A stretch of DNA of 64,000 nucleotides from Terriglobia bacterium (GCA_020073265.1 JAIQFN010000017.1:1-64000); one strand, 5' to 3'; counted from the stretch's first letter, positions 3,881 through 59,610 are shown. The notes: a model not told the origin generated them from the letters alone. Numbers and translations: made by a program.

Positions 3881-5203
3881 GTGTTGTACCAACCTTGCAA
3901 ATATCTTCTAGTACTTACCTTCGCGAGCATGCTCGGGGTGGCGCCGACACGGGTGCAGGCGCAAGCCAAGCCGCCGGCATCGCAAGAGCCGCAGAAGAAC
4001 TGGAAAGACCGGGCCGAATACGATCTCTACGACGCCATTACCAAGGACAACAATCCCAAGACCAGGCTGGAGAAGCTGCAGCAATGGGAAAAGCAGTATG
4101 CGTCGACCGAATGGATCAAAGAGCGGCGAACGCTGTTCATGACCACGTATTTCGCGCTCGGCCAGGCCAAGGACGCGGTAGCGGTGGCCAAGCAGATCCT
4201 GGCGGACGAGCCGAAGAATTTTAGCGCGCAGTTCATCATCGTGACGTTCACGCAGGCGCTGGCGGGAAACAGCCCCACCCCCGACGTTCTGAATCAGGGC
4301 AAGAGCGCAGCCGGCGCGCTGATCGCCAATATCGACACGCCGCCGCAGAATTTCACGGCCGATCAATGGAAGGCGCAGCGGCCGCAGGTGGAAGAGCTGG
4401 CGCATACGACGCTGGGCTGGATCGCGATGCAGGAGAAGGGCTGGCCGACGGCCGAGGAAGAATTCCAGAAGAGCCTCAAGATCAATGCCAACAGCGGCCA
4501 GGTGGACTACTACATGGGGACCGCGATCGCCTCCGAGAAAGACGTCAAGAAGATGCCCACGGCGCTGTTCTACTTCGCGCGCGCGGCCACCTACGCCGGA
4601 CCTGGCGCGTTGAATCCGGCGGGTCGCCAGCAGGTGCTGGACTATGTGAAGCGAGCCTACAGCGGTTATCACGGCAGCGCCCAGGATTTCGACAAGCTGC
4701 TGGAGGCGGCCAAGAGCTCTCCCCTGCCTCCGCCGGACTTCAGCATCAAGAGCGCGACCGAGATCGCCGAAGCCGCGATGAAGAACGAAGCGGATTGGGA
4801 GCAGACCCATCCGCTGGAGTCCACCTGGAAGAAGCTGAAGGACGCGCTCATGGGCCCGGACGGCGAGAATTACTTCAACACCGGAATGAAGGATGCGCTG
4901 TTGCCGACGCTAAAGGGAAAGGTGGTGAAGCTCGAACCGGAATCCAAGCCGAAGACCATCATTCTGGCGTTGGAAGACGGCAAGACCGACGGCACCGTCG
5001 GGGACGCGACGCTGAAGTTCGAGAAGGCGCTTGCGGGTAACGTCGAACCAGGCACGGAGCTAACGTTCGAGGGCGTGCCGCAGAGCTTTACCGCAAACCC
5101 GTTCATGGTGATGTTCAACGTGGATGAGGACAAGCTGCACGGCTGGACGGGAAAGAATGCGCCCGCACCGGTCCGGCACAGGCCGGCGACTAAGAAGCAA
5201 TAG
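3881..5203 (+). CDS. Secreted TPR-like protein, first of a tandem paralogous pair
   Basis: 440 residues from a GTG with GGGAGG 6 bases upstream. An N-terminal signal peptide (LLVLTFASMLGVA, cleavage near VQAQA) is followed by helical TPR-like repeats and a C-terminal beta-rich part (GKVVKLEPESKPKTIILALEDG, ELTFEGVPQSFTANPFMVMFNV). It is closely related along its whole length to the next gene (shared RLEKLQQWEKQY, TGKNAP near the C-terminus). Function unknown; secreted proteins with N-terminal TPR arms are abundant in Solibacter-like genomes. A clean terminator follows. Confidence 0.8.
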   Translation: MLYQPCKYLLVLTFASMLGVAPTRVQAQAKPPASQEPQKNWKDRAEYDLYDAITKDNNPKTRLEKLQQWEKQYASTEWIKERRTLFMTTYFALGQAKDAVAVAKQILADEPKNFSAQFIIVTFTQALAGNSPTPDVLNQGKSAAGALIANIDTPPQNFTADQWKAQRPQVEELAHTTLGWIAMQEKGWPTAEEEFQKSLKINANSGQVDYYMGTAIASEKDVKKMPTALFYFARAATYAGPGALNPAGRQQVLDYVKRAYSGYHGSAQDFDKLLEAAKSSPLPPPDFSIKSATEIAEAAMKNEADWEQTHPLESTWKKLKDALMGPDGENYFNTGMKDALLPTLKGKVVKLEPESKPKTIILALEDGKTDGTVGDATLKFEKALAGNVEPGTELTFEGVPQSFTANPFMVMFNVDEDKLHGWTGKNAPAPVRHRPATKKQ

Positions 5204-5351: not shown

Positions 5352-6656
5352 ATGTCGATCGAAGCATCGAGACTTTTTTTGATTGGGGCGGTAGCGGGAA
5401 TCCTTTGCGTGCCCTTCGCACTGCCGGGACAAGAAGCGGCGCCAAAGCAGCCGCAGTGTAAGGACCAGGCGGAGTGCACCCTGTATGACGCGATTTTGAA
5501 GGACAACAATGCGAAGAGCAGGCTGGAGAAGCTGCAGCAATGGGAGAAGCAGTATCCGTCGACGGAGTTTCTCAAAGTCCGCCGCACCCTTCTGATCACG
5601 ACGTACGCCGGAGCCGGACAGCCGAAAGAGGCGGTGGGTGTCGCCAAGCAGGCGCTGGCCGAGGATCCGAAGGATTTTAACGCGCTGTACTACACGATGT
5701 TTCTGACGCAGTCGTTGTACGGCGTGAGTCAGCAGCCGGCCGTGCTGGACGACGGCGAGAAAGCCTCCAAAGCGCTTCTGGCCAGCATCGACACGCCGCC
5801 TCCCGGGGTCGCCGCCGACCAGTGGGCCAAGGTCCGGCCGGATGTCGAAGTGCTGAGCCACACCACACTGGGCTTCATCGGAATGCAGAGGAAGACCTGG
5901 GATGGCGCCGAGGCGGAGTTGAAGAAGGCGCTGCAGTTGAATCCGAACAACAGCGGCGTCGATTATATGTTGGGCTTCACGCTGGCCAGCAAGAAGGAAA
6001 ATTCCGCGGCGCTGTTCTACTATGCGCGCGCGGCTGCTTACGACGGGCCGGGAAGCCTGGCCGCACAGCAGCGCCAAGGCGTCCAGACCCAGGTGCAGCA
6101 GATGTACACGGCCTACCATGGCAAGGCGGACGGGCTCACCGACTTGCTGGCGAAAGCCAAGGCCGAACCGAATCCTCCCGAAGGATTTCATATTCCGAGC
6201 AAGGGAGAGCTCGCCAAGGCCAGCGCCGAGGCCGAAGCCGCCGATGCAGAGAAGTTCGCCAAGGAGCATCCCGAGCTGGCGTTGTGGAAGAACATCAAGA
6301 CGCAGCTCACCGGAACGGACGGCGACAACTACTTCAATAGCGGCATGAAAGGCGCGAAGCTGCCGACGCTCAGAGGGAAAGTGGTGAAGCTGGAACCGGA
6401 AAACAGGCCCAAGACTCTGGTGCTGGCGTTAGAAAACGGGACCACGGGTGACGCCACGCTGAAATTCGAGATGGCTCTGGCGGGAAAAGTGGAGGCCGGG
6501 ACGGAGCTGACATTCGAAGGCGTGCCGGACAGCTACACCGCGAATCCCTTCATGGTGGTCTTCAGCGTCGACAAGGAAGACCTGCACGGCTGGACCGGAA
6601 AGAACGCGCCGCCGGTTCGCAGGCCGGCCGCGAAGAAGAGTTCCGCGCAGAAGTAG
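5352..6656 (+). CDS. Secreted TPR-like protein, second tandem paralogue
   Basis: 434 residues. Signal peptide (FLIGAVAGILCVPFALPGQ), then a short Cys pair (CKDQAEC) that the first paralogue lacks. TPR-like helices follow, then the same beta C-terminal region (GKVVKLEPENRPKTLVLALENG, ELTFEGVPDSYTANPFMVVF, HGWTGKNAP). The pair arose by tandem duplication. Each copy has its own upstream gap, and the first ends in a terminator. The C-terminus is Lys/Arg-rich. Function unknown; an envelope or secreted role is inferred from the signal peptide. Confidence 0.8.
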   Translation: MSIEASRLFLIGAVAGILCVPFALPGQEAAPKQPQCKDQAECTLYDAILKDNNAKSRLEKLQQWEKQYPSTEFLKVRRTLLITTYAGAGQPKEAVGVAKQALAEDPKDFNALYYTMFLTQSLYGVSQQPAVLDDGEKASKALLASIDTPPPGVAADQWAKVRPDVEVLSHTTLGFIGMQRKTWDGAEAELKKALQLNPNNSGVDYMLGFTLASKKENSAALFYYARAAAYDGPGSLAAQQRQGVQTQVQQMYTAYHGKADGLTDLLAKAKAEPNPPEGFHIPSKGELAKASAEAEAADAEKFAKEHPELALWKNIKTQLTGTDGDNYFNSGMKGAKLPTLRGKVVKLEPENRPKTLVLALENGTTGDATLKFEMALAGKVEAGTELTFEGVPDSYTANPFMVVFSVDKEDLHGWTGKNAPPVRRPAAKKSSAQK

Positions 6657-19508: not shown

Positions 19509-20714
19509 ATGCACCTGGGTGAAGCAGTCCGGTTCAGTTGGGAGGCGCTGCGCGCGAACAAGTTTCGCACCTTCCTGACCGCGCTCGGACTGGTGATCGG
19601 CAACGCCTCGGTCATTCTGGTGGTCACCATTTCGATTACCAGCCGCGAATACATCCTGGACAAGATACGCGGCGTCGGTTCCAACCTGATCTACGCCCAG
19701 TACACGGCCGGCACCAACACCGCCACGCAAGTGGACGCAGACTTCATCAAGCTGGCCGACGTGGACGCGGTACGCAAACAGTTTTCCAATCGCATCGTGG
19801 CTGCCACCGGAGTGATGACCACCTACGGCCGGGTCCTGATCAACGGCAAGGAGCAAGACGTCTCGGTAATCGGCACGGACGAACGGTATCCAGCGGTGCG
19901 CAACATGGTGCTGCTTTCCGGACGCTTCCCGGACGAGAGCGATCTGCGGCAGCGGCAGAAGGTGGTGATGGTCACCGAAAAGCTGGCGGAGCGGCTGTAT
20001 GGCAGTCCCCAGGCCGCGGTTGGACAAATCCTCAAGCTGTTCGGTCTGCGGTTCGCGGTGATCGGAGCGTTCAAGGAGCGGACCGGGACCTTCGGGTTTT
20101 CCGAGGTCACCAACGAGACTGCGCTGATGCCGATCACGGTGATCAAGGATTTCACGCCGGTGGAGCGCGTCGACCCGATGTACGTGCAGGCCAGGCAAGC
20201 CGACGACGTTGTGCCGCTCACGGGAGCCATCAAGCAGGTGCTCGAGAGCCGTCATCGGCCGGGCGCGCGCTACGACGTCCAGAACCTGTCGGGGATTCTG
20301 GAGGCGGCGCAGGAAATCGCGCTGGTGTTGACCATCGTGCTGATCCTGGTTTCGGCGATCGCGCTGATTATTTCCGGAATCGGCATCATGAACATCATGC
20401 TGGTGACGGTGACCGAGCGGACCCGCGAGATCGGCATCCGAATGGCGGTGGGGGCTTCGCGCCGCGACGTGCAGGAACAGTTCCTCACCGAGTCGGTGGT
20501 CATCAGTCTGGCGGGTGGCGCCATCGGCATCCTGCTGGGTATATCGGTGCCGCTCAGCGTGCGGTACTTGACCGACGACATACGCATTCCCATCTCCTCG
20601 CTTTCGGTAGTGGTGGCCTTCGGCGTCTCGCTGATCGTCGGCGTGGTGTTCGGGATGCTGCCGGCCAACCGGGCGTCGCGATTGAATCCGACCGAAGCGC
20701 TGCGGTACGAGTAG
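19509..20714 (+). CDS. MacB/FtsX-type ABC transporter permease
   Basis: 401 residues. One N-terminal helix (FLTALGLVIGNASVILVVTIS), a MacB-like periplasmic core domain to about residue 270, then the FtsX domain with three helices (IALVLTIVLILVSAIALIIS, IGIMNIMLVTVTERTREIGIRMAVGA, VVVAFGVSLIVGVVFGMLPA). The ERTREIGIRMAVGASRRDV motif is diagnostic. MacB-type complexes export macrolides, lipoproteins or signals. No ATPase or adaptor gene is adjacent, so the partners must be elsewhere. Confidence 0.9.
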   Translation: MHLGEAVRFSWEALRANKFRTFLTALGLVIGNASVILVVTISITSREYILDKIRGVGSNLIYAQYTAGTNTATQVDADFIKLADVDAVRKQFSNRIVAATGVMTTYGRVLINGKEQDVSVIGTDERYPAVRNMVLLSGRFPDESDLRQRQKVVMVTEKLAERLYGSPQAAVGQILKLFGLRFAVIGAFKERTGTFGFSEVTNETALMPITVIKDFTPVERVDPMYVQARQADDVVPLTGAIKQVLESRHRPGARYDVQNLSGILEAAQEIALVLTIVLILVSAIALIISGIGIMNIMLVTVTERTREIGIRMAVGASRRDVQEQFLTESVVISLAGGAIGILLGISVPLSVRYLTDDIRIPISSLSVVVAFGVSLIVGVVFGMLPANRASRLNPTEALRYE

Positions 20715-28386: not shown

Positions 28387-28460
28387 GCGGCTTCCGGCCG
28401 GTGGTGCGACCGAAATCCGACCGTCGCCCGTGGTACATTTGAGCTTTCGCCTGAGGCGGC

Positions 28461-29882
28461 ATGTCCGTTCAAATCCTGTTACAAGGCAAGGTTTTGGGGG
28501 TCGAGGAGTTCCTGCTCGCAGGCTCGCCGGACGAGGCGGTGTTCTCCGGACGCCTGCGCTGGTTGAGCCTGCTGAGCGAAGTGTTGCCGCGCGCCTTGAT
28601 CGCGGAGCTCGGGCTTTCGAAAATGCTGCTGGGATCGAGCGGCGGTGAACAATTCCTGGCGGTGTTGCCCGAGGAGGTTCGTCCGCAAGCCGAGCAATTC
28701 CTGAATGCGGCGCGGGCGGGGATGCACGAGTTGAGCCGTGGGCGGCTGGAGCTGCTGTGGGCCATCACCGAGAACCTCGGCGACTGGACCGTGGTTCGCA
28801 AGCGCCTGAACGAGGAGTTCCAGCGCAAGCAGGACACGCCGTTGGCCGCGACCGGTCTGGAATCGGCCGAGCAGCACGCGGAACCCGATCCGGACTATTT
28901 TGCCGGGCTCGAGACATCGCTTAGAGACGCGACCACGGTGAGCTGGTCTCCGGAATCGCCCGCGCGGATCAGCACGGCGGGCGGGAAGCATTCCTGGCCG
29001 ATCGGCTCATCGCCGGATGCGGTGCCTCTGGCGCGCCACACGGCCTTGACCGATGATGGACGCGACAGCGCCACGGCGTTGCTGCTGGCCTGCCGCGCGG
29101 AGGGCCGGCCAGTGTGGGGCGTTCTGCGCGGCGACGTGGACAGCGTCGGGATTCGCATGCGGCGCTTGCACAGTATCGAGGAGCACGTGCAGCTCTCGGT
29201 GCTGTACAAGCAGTTTTTCGCCGGCGAGGTGGAGGTGCTTTGCTCGCTTCCCGAGTTCTGGCGCAAAGTGAACCTGCTGTATACGGGCGGCGATGATTTC
29301 GCGGTGTACGGCGCCTGGGACGCGCTGATCGGACTGGGCCGGGAGTTGCAGCGCCTGTTCCAGCGCTTCAGCGAAGAGCACCTCAAGGATTTTCCGGGCG
29401 CCGAGGGGAAGACCATCACCATGGCTCTGGCGCTGGCGCCGGAGCTGACTACGCCGCTGCGGTCGGTGTACGAGCGCGCTGGAGACAAACTCGAGGTCGC
29501 CAAGTCCTCCGACAAGGATTGCTTCTACCTGCTGGGACGGACGCTCGAATGGAAGCAGCTTTCCGACGCCGCCGAGTTGAAGGACGAGCTGACCGGCATG
29601 GTGCGGGAGTTCGATGTCGCGCCGCAGTACATACGGGAGCTCTGTGGGATCTATCGCGAGACCAAGCGCGCGCCGGGCGCCAGGCGGGTGGAACGGCCGT
29701 GGCGTTTCCATCGGCGGCTGCACCGTATTCTGGGAAGCTCGCGCTCGCGCGATTTTCAAAAAGCGCGGGCCAGCCTGATCGCCGACCTGGTGGGGAAGAA
29801 TCCCGTCAATCTGAAGTTGCGGCCTTCGGGCCGCGTAGCGCTAGAATGGGCGAGATTGTCCACGGAGGGCCCGGAGCAGTAA
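28461..29882 (+). CDS. cas10: Cas10 (Csm1-type), type III-A, without HD domain
   Basis: 473 residues, far shorter than the usual 750-850. The N-terminus begins directly in the first palm-like domain (GSSGGEQFLAVLPEE, LSRGRLELLWAITENLGDW). The HD nuclease domain that cuts single-stranded DNA is absent. The second palm (WGVLRGDVDSVGIRMRRL) keeps the cyclase motif GGDD at residues 276-279, so cyclic oligoadenylate synthesis remains possible. The usual zinc-ribbon Cys pairs are missing. The C-terminal helical domain is present. First gene of the csm operon. Confidence 0.9.
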   Translation: MSVQILLQGKVLGVEEFLLAGSPDEAVFSGRLRWLSLLSEVLPRALIAELGLSKMLLGSSGGEQFLAVLPEEVRPQAEQFLNAARAGMHELSRGRLELLWAITENLGDWTVVRKRLNEEFQRKQDTPLAATGLESAEQHAEPDPDYFAGLETSLRDATTVSWSPESPARISTAGGKHSWPIGSSPDAVPLARHTALTDDGRDSATALLLACRAEGRPVWGVLRGDVDSVGIRMRRLHSIEEHVQLSVLYKQFFAGEVEVLCSLPEFWRKVNLLYTGGDDFAVYGAWDALIGLGRELQRLFQRFSEEHLKDFPGAEGKTITMALALAPELTTPLRSVYERAGDKLEVAKSSDKDCFYLLGRTLEWKQLSDAAELKDELTGMVREFDVAPQYIRELCGIYRETKRAPGARRVERPWRFHRRLHRILGSSRSRDFQKARASLIADLVGKNPVNLKLRPSGRVALEWARLSTEGPEQ

Positions 29883-29886
29883 CGAT

Positions 29887-29932
29887 GTGGCGCACGCACT
29901 GGTGCGTGCCGCGTTCACACTGGTGTGAACGC
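29887..29932 (+). repeat. Double-hairpin palindromic element, copy A
   Basis: Between cas10 and csm2. Two adjacent hairpins, GCACGCACTGGTGCGTGC and GTTCACACTGGTGTGAAC, joined by CGC. Copies B (32425-32470) and C (32499-32543, inverted) lie between csm4 and csm5. Stem sequences differ between copies with matching changes on both arms. These resemble REP-type intergenic palindromes. Confidence 0.85.
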
Positions 29933-29948
29933 AATGAGAGAGGATGGA

Positions 29949-30557
29949 ATGGCTGACGAACCGCAACAACAGGAACAGGGAAACCGCGAAGCGGCGAGCG
30001 GCGCCCCGCAAGGCGGCGCCCGCGAGAGTGGAGCTAGCCGCGAAGGCGGCGGCGGTCGCCCGGGCGGCGGCCGCGAAGGTGGCGGCGGTCGTGAAGGTGG
30101 CGGAGGCGGTCGCGAAGGCCGTGGCCGTGAGGGCGGCCGTGGTCCACACAGCGGAGGCCGCGAAGGCGGTCGAGGCGACGACCGGCGCGGCGGCGATCGG
30201 GGCCGCTTCGAAGGTCCGCCCGAAATCGACCTGGACAAGCTCATCTCCGACCCCTTGTATCTGGACAACCAGGCGCACGGCGTGGTGAGCCGCATGCGCG
30301 ACATGGATTCGGGCACCAAGAGCCAGTTGCGGCGTCTCTACAACGCGGTCCGCCGGGCCGTGCGGGCGCCGGAAAGCGAGCGCCAGCAGCAGTTCGTGAT
30401 GCTGCGCGCCCGGCTGGCCTACACCATCGCGCGCCACTCGCTGCGCAGCCTCGATTCGCTCGAGAAACTACTGCTGCAGGTGACGCGCAAGAACGACGCG
30501 CGCGGTTACGAGCGCTTCCGCGATCTGTTCGAAGCCATCGTCGCGTATAACGAATAA
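29949..30557 (+). CDS. csm2: Csm2 small subunit with Gly/Arg-rich N-terminal extension
   Basis: 202 residues from the ATG at 29949 (AGAGAGG 5 bases upstream). The C-terminal 120 residues are Csm2: IDLDKLISDPLYLDNQAHGVV, KSQLRRLYNAVRRAVRAPE, LRARLAYTIARHS, YERFRDLFEAIVAYN. Csm2 forms the helical small-subunit filament of type III-A complexes and contacts target RNA. Residues 10-90 are an unusual low-complexity stretch rich in Gly, Arg and Glu (repeated GREGGGG), like an RNA-binding RGG region. No Csm2 I know of has such an arm, so this is worth checking. Confidence 0.85.
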   Translation: MADEPQQQEQGNREAASGAPQGGARESGASREGGGGRPGGGREGGGGREGGGGGREGRGREGGRGPHSGGREGGRGDDRRGGDRGRFEGPPEIDLDKLISDPLYLDNQAHGVVSRMRDMDSGTKSQLRRLYNAVRRAVRAPESERQQQFVMLRARLAYTIARHSLRSLDSLEKLLLQVTRKNDARGYERFRDLFEAIVAYNE

Positions 30558-30569
30558 GAAACGGTTGAC

Positions 30570-31406
30570 ATGAGTTCTCACACAGCGCAAACGGAACTGA
30601 AGCTGATTGGAAAATTGATCCTGGAGGGAGACATCACCTGCCAGACCGGGCTGCACATCGGCGCAGGCAAAGGCTCGCTCGAAATTGGCGGCGCCGACAA
30701 TCCGGTGGTGAAGGACGCCTTCGGGTTGCCCTACATTCCGGGCAGCTCGCTGCGCGGCAAGCTGCGTTCATTGCTCGAACAGTCCTCGGGCCTGGCGGTG
30801 CCTTCGGAACTGGTGTATCTTTCGAAACGCAAGGGCCAGGAAGTACGCATTCATCAGAGCGACCGGCCGGACGACGACATCTGCATTCTGTTCGGGCGCA
30901 GTCCGGGCCGCATGGATCGCGTGTCCGGCGAGTCGCTGGACGCTACCACCGCCACCCCGGCGCGTCTGACCGTCTACGATGCTCCACTGGTGGCCGAAAG
31001 CATCACACCGCAGATGCGCGAGAACATGGACGACGAGCTGACCGAGGTGAAAAGCGAGAACGCCATCGATCGCATCACCTCGCAAGCCAATCCGCGCACG
31101 CTGGAGCGGGTTCCCGCGGGAGCGCGCTTCCATTTCCGCGTGGTGCTGGACGTGCTGTGCGCCGAAGATCGCGAGCTGCTGGCGCGCCTGTTGGAGGGCC
31201 TGCGGCTGCTCGAAGACGACAGTCTGGGGGGCGGCGGATCGCGTGGCAGTGGACGCGTGGCTTTGTCGAACCTGAAGCTCACCTGGCGAGGGCGCAGCTT
31301 TTACGCCTCCGGTGCGGCCGAGCAGGAACTGCTGGCCGAGGCCGATCTCGCGGGTTTGCAGACGCTCGCCAACGCGGCCGATTTCGCGGAGAAGCTCGCC
31401 GAATAG
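30570..31406 (+). CDS. csm3: Csm3 backbone RAMP protein (target RNA nuclease)
   Basis: 278 residues. KLILEGDITCQTGLHIGAGK, then GGADNPVVKDAFGLPYIPGSSLRGKLRS, is the Csm3/Cas7 signature. Asp43 in GGADNP corresponds to the catalytic Asp that cuts target RNA at 6-nt intervals, so cleavage should be intact. The Gly-rich loop GGGGSRGSGRVALSN (about 215-230) is the C-terminal RAMP motif. It starts 12 bases after csm2 and ends 1 base before csm4. Confidence 0.94.
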   Translation: MSSHTAQTELKLIGKLILEGDITCQTGLHIGAGKGSLEIGGADNPVVKDAFGLPYIPGSSLRGKLRSLLEQSSGLAVPSELVYLSKRKGQEVRIHQSDRPDDDICILFGRSPGRMDRVSGESLDATTATPARLTVYDAPLVAESITPQMRENMDDELTEVKSENAIDRITSQANPRTLERVPAGARFHFRVVLDVLCAEDRELLARLLEGLRLLEDDSLGGGGSRGSGRVALSNLKLTWRGRSFYASGAAEQELLAEADLAGLQTLANAADFAEKLAE

Positions 31407-31407
31407 A

Positions 31408-32421
31408 ATGTCCGAGGGCGGCGCCAGCAAAAGCTATGCGGTTCGTTTCCGTCCGGCCGGCCCGTGGCGTTTCGGTCCGGACTCGGGAGCGCGCGATCGC
31501 GTCGATCTGATCTGTCACAGCGACGCGGTGTTCTCGGCGGTGTGCTCGGCCATGTCGCAGCTCGGTTTCATGGAAGACTGGCTGGGGGCGACGGCGCGGT
31601 CGGCGGCGCCGGCGGTGCGATTCAGTTCGTTGTATCCTTTTCGCGGCGACACGCTGCTGGTGGTTCCGCCGCGTAGCCTCTGGCCGCCGACCGAGTCGGC
31701 CAAGGTCCGTTGCAAGGGCGCGCGCTTCGTTCCGCTTTCGGTGGTGGCTTCGCTGCTCGACGGCAAAGCCATCGACGAAAATCGCTGGGCTGTGGACGGC
31801 GAGAGCAAGTGCCTGGTATCCTCCGACGGAACCGGCGGACCATTCCGGATCGCGGTCCGCTCGAGCGCCGGCGTGGATCGACTGCAGCATGGCAACGTCG
31901 AGCCGCACGCTACCGCGTGCCTGGAGTTCGCGCGCGATGCCGGGCTGTGGACCGTGGTTGAGTTTGCGAACGATGATGCGGCCGCGCGGTGGGAAGCACC
32001 GGTGCGAAGCGCGTTGCGGCTTCTGGCCGATTCCGGTTTCGGCGGCGAGCGTTCGCGCGGCTGGGGCCGCTCGGAGGCTCCGGAATGGGAGCCTTGGATG
32101 CCGCCGCAGGCTGCTTCGACCGAAGAACCAGGGGAGCGAGCTTACTGGCTGCTGTCCGTCTTCACGCCGTCGGCTGGCGACGCGGTGGACTGGAGCCGCG
32201 GAAGCTATTCCACGGTTTCGCGACGTGGACGGATCGAAAGCAGCGCGCGTTGGGGCGAGCCGAAGAGCGCGACGGTCATGATCGAAGAAGGGTCGGTGCT
32301 GCTCGCGGGCGCGGAATTGCAGGGCGCGGCCCGCGACGTCGCTCCGGCCGGTTTCCCGCACCCGGTGTATCGCGCCGGATTCGCCCTGACGGTGCCGATC
32401 CCATGGAGAGCCTCGGTATGA
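31408..32421 (+). CDS. csm4: Csm4 (Cas5-like) RAMP protein
   Basis: 337 residues from the ATG at 31408; the open frame starts earlier, inside csm3. YAVRFRPAGPWRFGPDSGARD leads a Cas5/Csm4-type ferredoxin fold. HSDAVFSAVCSAMSQLGF and FSSLYPFRGDTLLVVPPRSLW are family features, and GFGGERSRGWGRSE is the Gly-rich C-terminal RAMP loop. Csm4 binds the 5' handle of the crRNA and holds Cas10. Its TGA is followed within 4 bases by palindromic element B. Confidence 0.9.
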   Translation: MSEGGASKSYAVRFRPAGPWRFGPDSGARDRVDLICHSDAVFSAVCSAMSQLGFMEDWLGATARSAAPAVRFSSLYPFRGDTLLVVPPRSLWPPTESAKVRCKGARFVPLSVVASLLDGKAIDENRWAVDGESKCLVSSDGTGGPFRIAVRSSAGVDRLQHGNVEPHATACLEFARDAGLWTVVEFANDDAAARWEAPVRSALRLLADSGFGGERSRGWGRSEAPEWEPWMPPQAASTEEPGERAYWLLSVFTPSAGDAVDWSRGSYSTVSRRGRIESSARWGEPKSATVMIEEGSVLLAGAELQGAARDVAPAGFPHPVYRAGFALTVPIPWRASV

Positions 32422-32424
32422 GCC

Positions 32425-32470
32425 GTGGCGCGCGCACTCTTGCGTGCCGCGTTCGCACTCGTGCGAATGC
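32425..32470 (+). repeat. Double-hairpin palindromic element, copy B
   Basis: GCGCGCACTCTTGCGTGC and TTCGCACTCGTGCGAA, directly after the csm4 stop. Same order and spacing as copy A, with the second stem changed on both arms. Confidence 0.85.
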
Positions 32471-32498
32471 TTGGCCTGATCTTTCATTGAACCCCCGG

Positions 32499-32543
32499 GC
32501 GTGGGCACGAGTGCCCACGCGGCACGCTGAGAGCGTGCGCCAC
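32499..32543 (-). repeat. Double-hairpin palindromic element, copy C (inverted)
   Basis: Read on the minus strand it is GTGGCGCACGCTCTCAGCGTGC followed by CGTGGGCACTCGTGCCCACG: the same order as copies A and B, facing copy B across 28 bases. The B-C pair fills the csm4-csm5 gap and could form a larger folded structure in the operon mRNA. Confidence 0.85.
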
Positions 32544-32560
32544 GGCAGGCAGGTCCATCC

Positions 32561-33712
32561 ATGAAATACCGGCTCACCTGCCTCACCCCCACCCTGGTCG
32601 GCGACGGCCAGAAGCTCGCGCCCATCGACTACATGGTCTGGAAAGACCACGTCAATGTTCTCGACCAGAGGCGCATCTTCCGCTTGCTCGCCAAAGGACC
32701 GCGCCTGGACGGCTACTTGAACCAGCTCAAGAAAGCGGAGAAGCTGGATTTCGCGTCCTGGGGCGGCTTCGCGCAGAATTATTCCGGACGCCGCATCCCG
32801 TTCGAGCACCCGAGTTCGACGCAGTATTGGGAAAAGGCGCACGCCGAGCATCTGTTCATCCCCACCTTCAGCACGGGTCCGAGCGGGCCGTATCTTCCGG
32901 CCACCGCGCTCAAGGGTGCATTGCGCACCGGCGTCGTACACGGACAAATTTCGGAACGCCTGATCAGCGACCTGGCGGAGCGCACCGCTTCGGAAGGACG
33001 CCTGCCCCGGCGCCCCGCGAGTTATGTGGAAGAAGCCGCGCTCGGATCGGGCGGCGCCGATTCCATGAAGTTCATCGCGGCGTCCGATTCCAGCACCGTT
33101 GCCGAGAACGTTTTCAAAATCTACCTGCTGCGCGTGGCGACGCTCGAAGCGCGCGGAGGCGGAAAACTCGAGCTGGCCTGGAAGCAAAGCCCGCGCGGCA
33201 GCGTGAAGCGCGCCGAAGACAGCACTCCAGCCTTCGCGGAGATGGCGGTTCCCGGCACGACCTTCGAAGGCGAGTGGCGCGAGAGCGCGTTCCTGGCGCA
33301 ACCGGAGATCGCCAAAGCGCTTCGCAAACGCGATCGTCTGGACGCCGCGGCCGTGTTCGCGCTGGTGAACGGTTACGCCGAGCAGATGCTGCGCGTGCAA
33401 AAGCAGTACTCGGTATGGACCGGGCTGGCGCTGCTGAAGTCCACCATCGAGCAATTGGAAACGCGGCTGGGCGAAATCCGCCAGGCCGGCAACGGCTGCA
33501 TGCTCCCGCTCGGATGGGGCGCGGGGTTCCTCTCCAAGGCGGCGTTTCTCGACACCAAGGACGAAACCTATCGGAAGATCCTGGCGCAGGTGGGATTCTA
33601 CGCGCGCGCGATTCAATCCGGCCTGCCGTTCCCGAAAACGCGCAAGATCATTTTTCTCGGGAATCAGCCGGCCTCGCTGGCCGGATTCGTTCACCTGACC
33701 GTCGGGGGCTGA
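32561..33712 (+). CDS. csm5: Csm5 RAMP protein
   Basis: 383 residues. YRLTCLTPTLVGDGQKLAPIDYMVW, with the ID(Y)MVW and LDQRRIFRLL motifs, is typical of Csm5. FSTGPSGPYLPATALKGALRTGVV is the central RAMP loop. LPLGWGAGFLSKAAFL is the C-terminal Gly-rich motif. Csm5 caps the complex at the crRNA 3' end and recruits maturation nucleases. It is the last csm gene; no cas6, csm6 or adaptation gene follows. Confidence 0.92.
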   Translation: MKYRLTCLTPTLVGDGQKLAPIDYMVWKDHVNVLDQRRIFRLLAKGPRLDGYLNQLKKAEKLDFASWGGFAQNYSGRRIPFEHPSSTQYWEKAHAEHLFIPTFSTGPSGPYLPATALKGALRTGVVHGQISERLISDLAERTASEGRLPRRPASYVEEAALGSGGADSMKFIAASDSSTVAENVFKIYLLRVATLEARGGGKLELAWKQSPRGSVKRAEDSTPAFAEMAVPGTTFEGEWRESAFLAQPEIAKALRKRDRLDAAAVFALVNGYAEQMLRVQKQYSVWTGLALLKSTIEQLETRLGEIRQAGNGCMLPLGWGAGFLSKAAFLDTKDETYRKILAQVGFYARAIQSGLPFPKTRKIIFLGNQPASLAGFVHLTVGG

Positions 33713-34213: not shown

Positions 34214-35068
34214 ATGTACAACGCTTATTTCGGATTCTCGGAGTGTCCCTTCAGCCTCAGCCCGAATCCCAGCTTCTATTTCCGCAGCGCGCTGCATGAA
34301 GAGGCCCTGGCCAACCTGTGCTACGGCATCCAGAGCCGCAAAGGATTCATCGTGCTCACCGGCGAAGTGGGCACTGGCAAAACCACGCTGCTCGAATGCC
34401 TGCGCGACTCGCTCGACTCCCAGCACGTCGCGTTCGCGTTTCTGTTCAACTCGCGCCTCACCGTCGATCAGTTCTTTCAAATGATCGCCTACGATCTGGA
34501 CCTGCGCTGCGACAAGACTTCCAAGACCGAGGTCCTGTTCGCGCTGAACTCATTTCTGCTCGAACAGGCTTCGCAGAACCGCACCACCGCGCTGATCATC
34601 GACGAAGCCCACAACCTGGAATGGGACGTGCTCGAAGAGGTTCGCCTGCTGGGGAACCTGGAGACGCGCCACGGCAAGCTGCTCCAGATCGTTTTGGCCG
34701 GCCAGACGGAACTGGATCGCAAGCTGGATGCGCCGGAGCTGCGCCAGCTCAAGCAGCGGATCGTGCTGCGCTCGAAGCTGGAGGCGTTCTCGCCCGCCGA
34801 CACCGAGCGCTACATCGCCGCCCGTTTCGAGAAAGCCGGTATGCCGGACCAGACCGTCTTTTCGCCGGAGATTCTGTCGGAGATCCACTTTCGCTCGCAA
34901 GGCATTCCCCGGCTGATCAACTCCATCTCGGACAACCTGCTGCTTACCTGCTTTGCGCTGGACTGCAAGATGGCCACGCTCGCAATGCTGGACGAGGTCA
35001 GCCGCGACCTGCGCCTGGAATGGCCGGAAGGCCGTCGGGCGCTGGCCACCGCTCATCCGGCCTTTTGA
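34214..35068 (+). CDS. ExeA/GspA-type AAA ATPase
   Basis: 284 residues. The opening MYNAYFGFSECPFSLSPNPSF is the ExeA N-terminal motif. Walker A is GEVGTGKTT (about residue 52), Walker B is ALIIDEAHN, and sensor/arginine regions are LETRHGKLLQIVLAGQTELDRKL and RYIAARFEKAGM. ExeA homologues help assemble type II secretion or occur in exosortase-linked polysaccharide loci. No secretion gene is adjacent; the C-terminal peptidoglycan-binding domain of true ExeA is missing. Confidence 0.85.
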   Translation: MYNAYFGFSECPFSLSPNPSFYFRSALHEEALANLCYGIQSRKGFIVLTGEVGTGKTTLLECLRDSLDSQHVAFAFLFNSRLTVDQFFQMIAYDLDLRCDKTSKTEVLFALNSFLLEQASQNRTTALIIDEAHNLEWDVLEEVRLLGNLETRHGKLLQIVLAGQTELDRKLDAPELRQLKQRIVLRSKLEAFSPADTERYIAARFEKAGMPDQTVFSPEILSEIHFRSQGIPRLINSISDNLLLTCFALDCKMATLAMLDEVSRDLRLEWPEGRRALATAHPAF

Positions 35069-50238: not shown

Positions 50239-50651
50239 CGCGGGGGCAAGGTCCCTGTGGGGAGAACCGAAAGGCGATCCAAGCAGCAAGCGCGTTTCTC
50301 CAAATCCAATAGGAAGTCGACGTGTGTTGTGACGAGTGCGGCGGCTCGGGCTTAGACCCGGGTGGCATCGATCCCTGGAGACCGGATCTATGCCAGCATG
50401 CCAGGGCGCGGGAACACAGAGGGTCACCAACGTCGGCGTGCTCTGCGTGTATAGGGATGGGTTCTACCGGCCCGATGGCGAGATGCTGATCCCCCAGCGG
50501 GTCAAGCATCTGCTCTTGGACTACGACTGCTCGGAAATGGTACGCCAATGCTAGTCGGCAAGATCGTTGAGTTCATTGCCGGGCGTGCCTTAGCTAGAAT
50601 GCGCTCTCGGCCCGATTGACGCCGAATGCATCCATGATGGCACTCGCGGCA
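50239..50651. other. Intergenic region holding a decayed primase fragment
   Basis: Between rfbC and the metallophosphoesterase gene. Apart from the remnant listed at 50430 I see no gene. It marks the left boundary of the exporter block. Confidence 0.5.
50430..50585 (+). pseudogene. Remnant of a D5/P4-type phage or plasmid primase, copy 1
   Basis: The reading VYRDGFYRPDGEMLIP with VKHLLLDYDCSEM, then a frame change to KIVEFIAG, matches the conserved N-terminal segment of D5/P4-type primases as I remember it. A related fragment in the same orientation lies at 59183. The fragment has no start codon and is broken by a stop. It is a relic of a mobile element. Confidence 0.55.
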
Positions 50652-59182: not shown

Positions 59183-59610
59183 ATGAATCCACGAACGCTG
59201 ATCCGTGATCTCGTCGGTGCGATCATCGAAAAAGAGTGCTTTGCCCGCAATGGCAGCGGCGAGCTTTACATGCACCGGGATGGGTCTAACGGTCCGATTG
59301 CTGGATGCTGATCCGCCAGCCAGTCAAGTATCTGCTCTCGGCCTACGACTGCTCGGAATTTTGGAGCAGGAGGCTGGCAGGCGAGATTGTCGAGTTCATT
59401 GCGCTGGATGTGCCCGAGTTGCCGGATCGGCCCTCAAGCGGGCTAATCACAACTTGGAGAATGGGCTGCTCTACGCGAGGACTCGGCAACTGTTCCCGCA
59501 CTCACCGACACCTTGTCCAGCAATCGCATTCAAAGTCACAATTCTAGCCGCAGGTCGGCTGCCCGGAGATCGAGAGGATTATCGGTGAAGTCTTCCCGGA
59601 GGACGCAATT
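59183..59610 (+). pseudogene. Remnant of a D5/P4-type phage or plasmid primase, copy 2
   Basis: Starts with ATG at 59183 (MNPRTLIRDLVGAIIEKECF), runs to MHRDGSNGP, shifts frame to MLIRQPVKYLLSAYDCSEF and EIVEFIALDVPELPDRP, shifts again to NHNLENGLLYARTRQLFPHSP, and ends near CPEIERIIGEVFPEDA. At least two frameshifts, so inactive. The segments follow the order of a D5/P4-type primase as I remember it. Clearly related to the fragment at 50430. Confidence 0.55.

Follow-up and report, generated by a model that had tools for sequence, protein, structure and literature searches.

A vertically inherited, HD-less type III-A csm operon of the Bryobacteraceae and its proposed decoupling from CRISPR adaptation

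CRISPR effectors are usually regarded as mobile, dispensable immunity genes. What is the function of a complete type III-A csm operon that has no CRISPR array near it and whose Cas10 has no HD nuclease domain? The question is raised by a stretch of 64,000 nucleotides from a Terriglobia bacterium (JAIQFN010000017.1:1-64000; hereafter the window), which belongs to a genome of 6.41 Mb that is 98% complete. The original prediction, made from the window alone, supposed that the operon could use crRNAs from elsewhere or guide RNAs of another kind, and that it could signal only through cyclic oligoadenylate (cOA).

The operon and its proteins

The operon comprises cas10, csm2, csm3, csm4 and csm5, in this order on the plus strand (28461-33712). 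Type III-A models (PADLOC, NCBIfam or Pfam) match all five genes, and these matches, together with the gene coordinates, bear out the prediction of a complete and tightly packed Csm set. The features of the operon, in window coordinates, are as follows.

28430..28443, + strand: promoter-like element 5' of cas10, GTGGTACATTTGAG (by eye, no statistical test)
28461..29882, + strand: cas10/csm1, 473 aa, HD-less, with GGDD at residues 276-279
29887..29932, + strand: REP-like 46-nt double palindrome, copy 1 (genome-wide repeat)
29949-30557, + strand: csm2, whole gene; the ATG is in register with relatives, and an alternative GTG start is possible at 29925
29949..30209, + strand: Arg/Gly-rich low-complexity N-terminal extension of Csm2 (comparison with relatives)
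30210..30557, + strand: conserved core of Csm2, the Cas11 small subunit (type III-A models and alignment)
30570..31406, + strand: csm3, the Cas7 backbone RNase, with invariant Asp43 (type III-A models and alignment)
31408..32421, + strand: csm4 (Cas5; type III-A models)
32425..32545, + strand: REP-like palindrome, copy 2 (46-nt unit 32425-32470), with a further inverted arm, in the csm4/csm5 gap
32561..33712, + strand: csm5, the Cas7-like cap (type III-A models)

Inspection by eye of the region 5' of cas10 in ten relatives gave counterparts of the promoter-like element, GTGCTACAGTGA and GTGTTACATTTGA. An AAA ATPase gene (PF13401) lies at 34214-35068 of the window, and about 17 of 80 relatives' loci have such a gene downstream of the operon. 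Elsewhere in the window, two tandem paralogous stretches (3991-5163 and 5447-6610), about 1.45 kb apart, share blocks of 72-82% identity, and a 77-nt direct repeat (50460-50536 and 59282-59358, 84% identical) recurs at a distance of 8.8 kb.

The score of Cas10 against the full-length NCBIfam model was 133 bits, below the cut-off of 170, because the match covers model positions 495-751 only. An AlphaFold2 model of Cas10 (mean pLDDT 73) was superposed on solved Csm1 with a Z-score of 28.6 and an rmsd of 3.4 over 411 residues. In this alignment residue 1 of Cas10 falls on residue ~240 of Csm1, and the two proteins then run together from ~240 to 757, through domain D4. The HD domain is therefore missing, as had been predicted, while both palm domains and D4 remain. 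Since a different gene ends 75 nt upstream of cas10, and the length of Cas10 is equal in relatives, the short N-terminus is genuine and is not a truncation by mis-annotation. The HD domain is present in 65% of III-A Cas10 proteins, being common but not universal (PMC11229360).

The catalytic residues expected from the original prediction, GGDD of Cas10 and Asp43 of Csm3, are both present, and they are conserved to different degrees. Asp43 is kept in all 90 sequences compared. Of 90 Cas10 sequences, 82 have the exact GGDD, the others having GGND (four), AGDD (two), GSDD (one) and GGDE (one), and Asp227 of Cas10 is kept in 90/90. AGDD and GGDE are known from loci thought to have active cyclases, whereas GGND is missing from that list (PMC11229360). 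The RNase residue is therefore more constrained than the cyclase motif, and RNA cleavage through Csm3 would, on the best reading of these alignments, be the most constrained activity of the complex. The candidate receptors of a cOA signal are rare. The CARF model PF09670 matched in 12 of 81 family genomes (11 above the cut-off), partly those with canonical type III loci, and SAVED (PF18145) in five of 81, so that no universal cOA receptor was recognized. Neither PF09670 nor PF18145, the two models searched, has a match in the source genome, where an effector of another CARF family (Csx1, Csm6-HEPN, Card1) or a non-CARF receptor may still exist. The supposition that the complex signals only through cOA is weakened by these facts.

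The core of Csm2 is nearly invariant, about 70 of its 115 positions being at least 97% identical among 92 sequences. It is preceded in every relative examined by an Arg/Gly-rich tail of 33-138 aa with low complexity. Arg/Gly-rich tails elsewhere are RNA-binding, disordered segments of proteins, and by analogy the tail of Csm2 may have an RNA-related role.

Distribution and inheritance in the Bryobacteraceae

The operon proved to be a property of nearly a whole bacterial family. The census covered 170 family genomes with a completeness of 90% or more, most genomes of the family being draft MAGs, and a homologous HD-less Cas10 was present in 164 of them, representing 61 of 64 genera. When 299 genomes across the class were searched, 65 had homologues, and every one of these belonged to the source genome's own family. 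The genomes sampled from other families gave no full-length Cas10 homologue, and only two weak matches (E 7e-4 and 1.6e-4), both in one other family, lay outside. Named relatives carry Bryobacteraceae, Bryobacterales or broader acidobacterial labels. Two genera consistently have no HD-less Cas10 (g3, with G021 and G372; g4, with G029 and G347), and G021 has neither Cas10 nor Cas6. A contig titled Bordetella parapertussis (CALQCC020000006.1, our locus L062) also has the Bryobacteraceae operon, and its label looks wrong.

The order of the five genes is constant across relatives' loci, while the flanking genes vary. The close relatives L032 and L107 have nothing but the operon in common, while L031 retains synteny. 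No neighbour gene, whether candidate effector or RNA gene, was conserved in most operon loci. Phages gave no match to the operon, and plasmids only a distant Csm3.

The inheritance of the operon was analyzed by comparison with RpoB. The trees of concatenated Csm proteins and of RpoB from 17 genomes have 7 of 14 splits in common, the random expectation being 0.23 on average and 3 at most in 1000 shuffles. The distance matrices of Csm3 and RpoB are correlated (r 0.61), a value reached in 0 of 5000 permutations. Between close relatives, dN/dS was 0.02-0.16. These results show that the operon is under purifying selection and congruent with RpoB, and they point to vertical descent as part of the core genome. 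The original interpretation is partly supported, but the near-universal, vertical and selected family-wide context was invisible from one window.

Cas6, arrays and the source of guide RNAs

The original prediction had found no cas6, which holds for the window but not for the genome, where a Cas6 gene lies on another contig (C123, about 19759-20682). PADLOC Cas6 models span this gene entirely; its profile gave no match by sequence to solved structures. Of the 81 family genomes, 72, the source genome among them, have a Cas6 (PF10040) that scores above the curated cut-off. A dedicated-Cas6 profile separated full or nearly full copies (~190-430 bits) from the Cas6 of canonical type III loci (at most ~120 bits), and by this split the dedicated form is present in about 69 of 81 genomes, again including the source genome. 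In the 20 loci examined the dedicated gene is solitary: it is unlinked to the operon, and neither an array nor a conserved neighbour accompanies it. Its predicted role would be to serve the Csm complex. Cas10 and Cas6 co-occur significantly when all 81 genomes are taken (Fisher p 0.015), but the association is not significant when those of at least 90% completeness are counted alone (p 0.41). Six Cas10-positive genomes (G173, G089, G328, G181, G193, G315) have no Cas6 or the canonical one only, and the Cas6 and RpoB trees have only 2 of 15 splits in common. Of a type III array, cas6 and csm6 elsewhere in the genome, which the original prediction had named as what would refute it, only cas6 was found, csm6 having been sought through the PF09670 CARF model only.

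The main rival to a resident function is ordinary type III-A interference in trans. The complex would borrow crRNAs from the transient arrays of other systems, for example type I-C repeats ending GGATTGAAAC, and the array-less condition would be a transient state in which the operon is ready for the next array. Sources of such crRNAs exist in the family: cas1 is present in 44 of 81 genomes, arrays with repeats ending ATTGAAAC occur in G043 and G063, and some of these genomes also have canonical, HD-bearing type III systems with arrays. Moreover, trans use has been proposed for array-less type III-G (PMC12669027). The rival does not easily account for the equal frequencies of Cas10 and of dedicated Cas6 in genomes with and without cas1; 28 of the 37 cas1-less genomes retain both. 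Retention of Cas10 in 164 of 170 genomes is far steadier than that of cas1. In the source genome no cas1 was found; its genus mate G317 is likewise cas1-less, and no arrays were detected in G401-G403 of the same genus with the TGAAAC/G pattern, which has false negatives. We therefore consider borrowing in trans unlikely, though it deserves to be taken seriously. For the proposal that crRNAs come from elsewhere, these results mean that no array was found in the source genome by an imperfect detection, and that retention of the operon is independent of cas1.

A less probable alternative is that each genome has a dedicated array, either small or degenerate or dropped during assembly, and that the operon, cas6 and the array are the dispersed parts of a normal type III-A system. 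The array-less window of the original prediction was borne out, as neither a CRISPR array nor an Rfam match was detected there. A triple TGAAAC/G pattern gave 0 matches in the source genome and dense matches in the array controls G225, G105 and G043. This pattern is not exhaustive, since it misses real arrays with repeats ending in GATTGAGAC or GATTAAGAC, namely those of G185 and G173. A general array detector found none in 1.76 of 6.41 Mb (27%) of the source genome, most contig starts included. Together with the breaking of MAG assemblies at arrays, this coverage leaves room for a hidden array. The surroundings of the operon (about 80 loci) and of cas6 (20 loci) are nevertheless free of adjoining arrays, the contig ends sampled have none, and the near-closed genomes G198 (3 contigs) and G404 (2 contigs) gave no match to the pattern. 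The closed genomes of Solibacter usitatus (PMC3174227) and of strain F-183 (PMC8759368) have, in addition, been published as CRISPR-less. We regard a hidden array in every genome as improbable.

The absence of detected arrays and cas1 and the loss of the HD domain might also suggest non-functional genes left after CRISPR loss, as the three cas genes of Solibacter usitatus were read (PMC3174227), which may not be this Csm operon; this explanation is very improbable, being contradicted by the retention in 164/170 genomes, the low dN/dS, the invariant catalytic residues and the intact five-gene operon.

Several repeats were considered as sources of guides or as arrays and were rejected. The core of the in-operon palindromes, GTGGCGCxCGCACT, occurs 46 times in 1.76 Mb of the source genome, with two copies inside the operon. 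Among 59 operons of relatives only 3 have such palindromes, and because they are rare there and dispersed in the genome, we treated them as REP elements and not as a guide source. In L040 and L065, what resembled an array was a tandem repeat, either coding or without spacers. The one in L040 (9590-9935) has a unit of ~70 bp in five head-to-tail copies without spacers, immediately 5' of cas10, and the array-like signal at 10576-10808 of L314 in the source genome is a three-copy tandem repeat without spacers resembling it. Canonical type III arrays also occur in the family (L165 37-4983, G225:C19 and G225:C45) and have related repeats, CCTGAACNAGAAGGGATTGAAAC or ending GATTGAGAC. No guide RNA candidate for the complex was found, so that an RNA-guided function in array-less genomes is putative.

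Proposed role and comparison with known systems

We favour, with a probability of roughly 55%, the reading that the operon and the dedicated Cas6 form a domesticated, vertically inherited type III-A Cas6-Csm ribonucleoprotein of the Bryobacteraceae (Acidobacteriota), decoupled from CRISPR adaptation. The csm operon would already have been acquired when the ancestor shared by most of the family lived, and would have been passed down vertically in the core genome from then on. The unlinked Cas6 would mature one or more guide RNAs, and the Csm proteins, which are predicted to assemble into a complex, would take up these guides and cut complementary RNA via Csm3, whose cleavage is probably the main output. 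Recognition of the target may also prompt the HD-less Cas10 to make cyclic oligonucleotides, which would act through an effector not recognized here. Chromosomal non-array transcripts, small arrays that escaped the search and arrays of other systems are candidate sources of guides. Since retention is so high and selection so strong, and most genomes have an unlinked gene for guide processing, the operon probably serves a resident function that is not adaptive immunity. A more specific version is tentative: the Cas6-Csm ribonucleoprotein might be a housekeeping RNA-guided ribonuclease whose chromosomal non-CRISPR guides direct it to cellular RNA for regulation or surveillance. The RG-rich tail of Csm2 would take part, and a cyclic-nucleotide signal would go to a receptor still to be discovered.

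If the favoured reading is true, a core, constrained and cas1-independent Csm complex represents exaptation of a type III system for a resident function. Testable questions arise from it: which RNAs are bound by Cas6-Csm where arrays have not been detected, and which receptor reads the signal of the HD-less Cas10 where no CARF or SAVED partner is recognized. Type III loci without an HD domain and type III loci without an array are each already known. In the open-access literature searched, no description was found of a family-wide, vertical, cas1-independent core Csm operon with an unlinked Cas6, although this is weak evidence of novelty.

By composition the complex is a type III-A Csm complex. 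With those of S. epidermidis, S. thermophilus, L. lactis and E. italicus it has in common the Cas10-Csm2-Csm3-Csm4-Csm5 set, the palm1-palm2-D4 fold with its two-palm Cas10, GGDD, the catalytic Asp of Csm3 and a Cas6 in the genome, here the predicted enzyme of C123. Unlike them, it has no HD domain, its cas6 is unlinked, and arrays and cas1 were not detected, so that it falls short of complete adaptive immunity in cas1 and, as far as tested, in arrays. It further differs from them in having no recognized known effector, in the RG-rich tail of Csm2 and in its vertical inheritance as a core operon.

The canonical type III-A loci of the same family (G185, G173, G267, G036) have homologous Cas10, Csm3, Csm5 and Cas6. 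They differ in being sporadic, in a full-length Cas10 of 837-967 aa with 24-28% identity and in a linked cas6, and an array and a CARF gene are adjacent in some of them only. A survey in which Acidobacteria are not named in the main text described 133 HD-less, cyclase-bearing type III loci without a known effector and read this lack as possible inter-locus signalling (PMC11229360). The present operon resembles that group in its HD-less Cas10, its cyclase motif and its want of a recognized effector, whereas in the Bryobacteraceae these features extend through the family, and the source genome is in addition without a detectable array or cas1. Type III-G is similar in that the locus carries neither array nor adaptation genes and guides are expected in trans (PMC12669027). 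Type III-G, however, has an apparently active HD domain and no catalytic Asp in Cas7, while in the Bryobacteraceae operon the HD domain is absent and the Asp is present.
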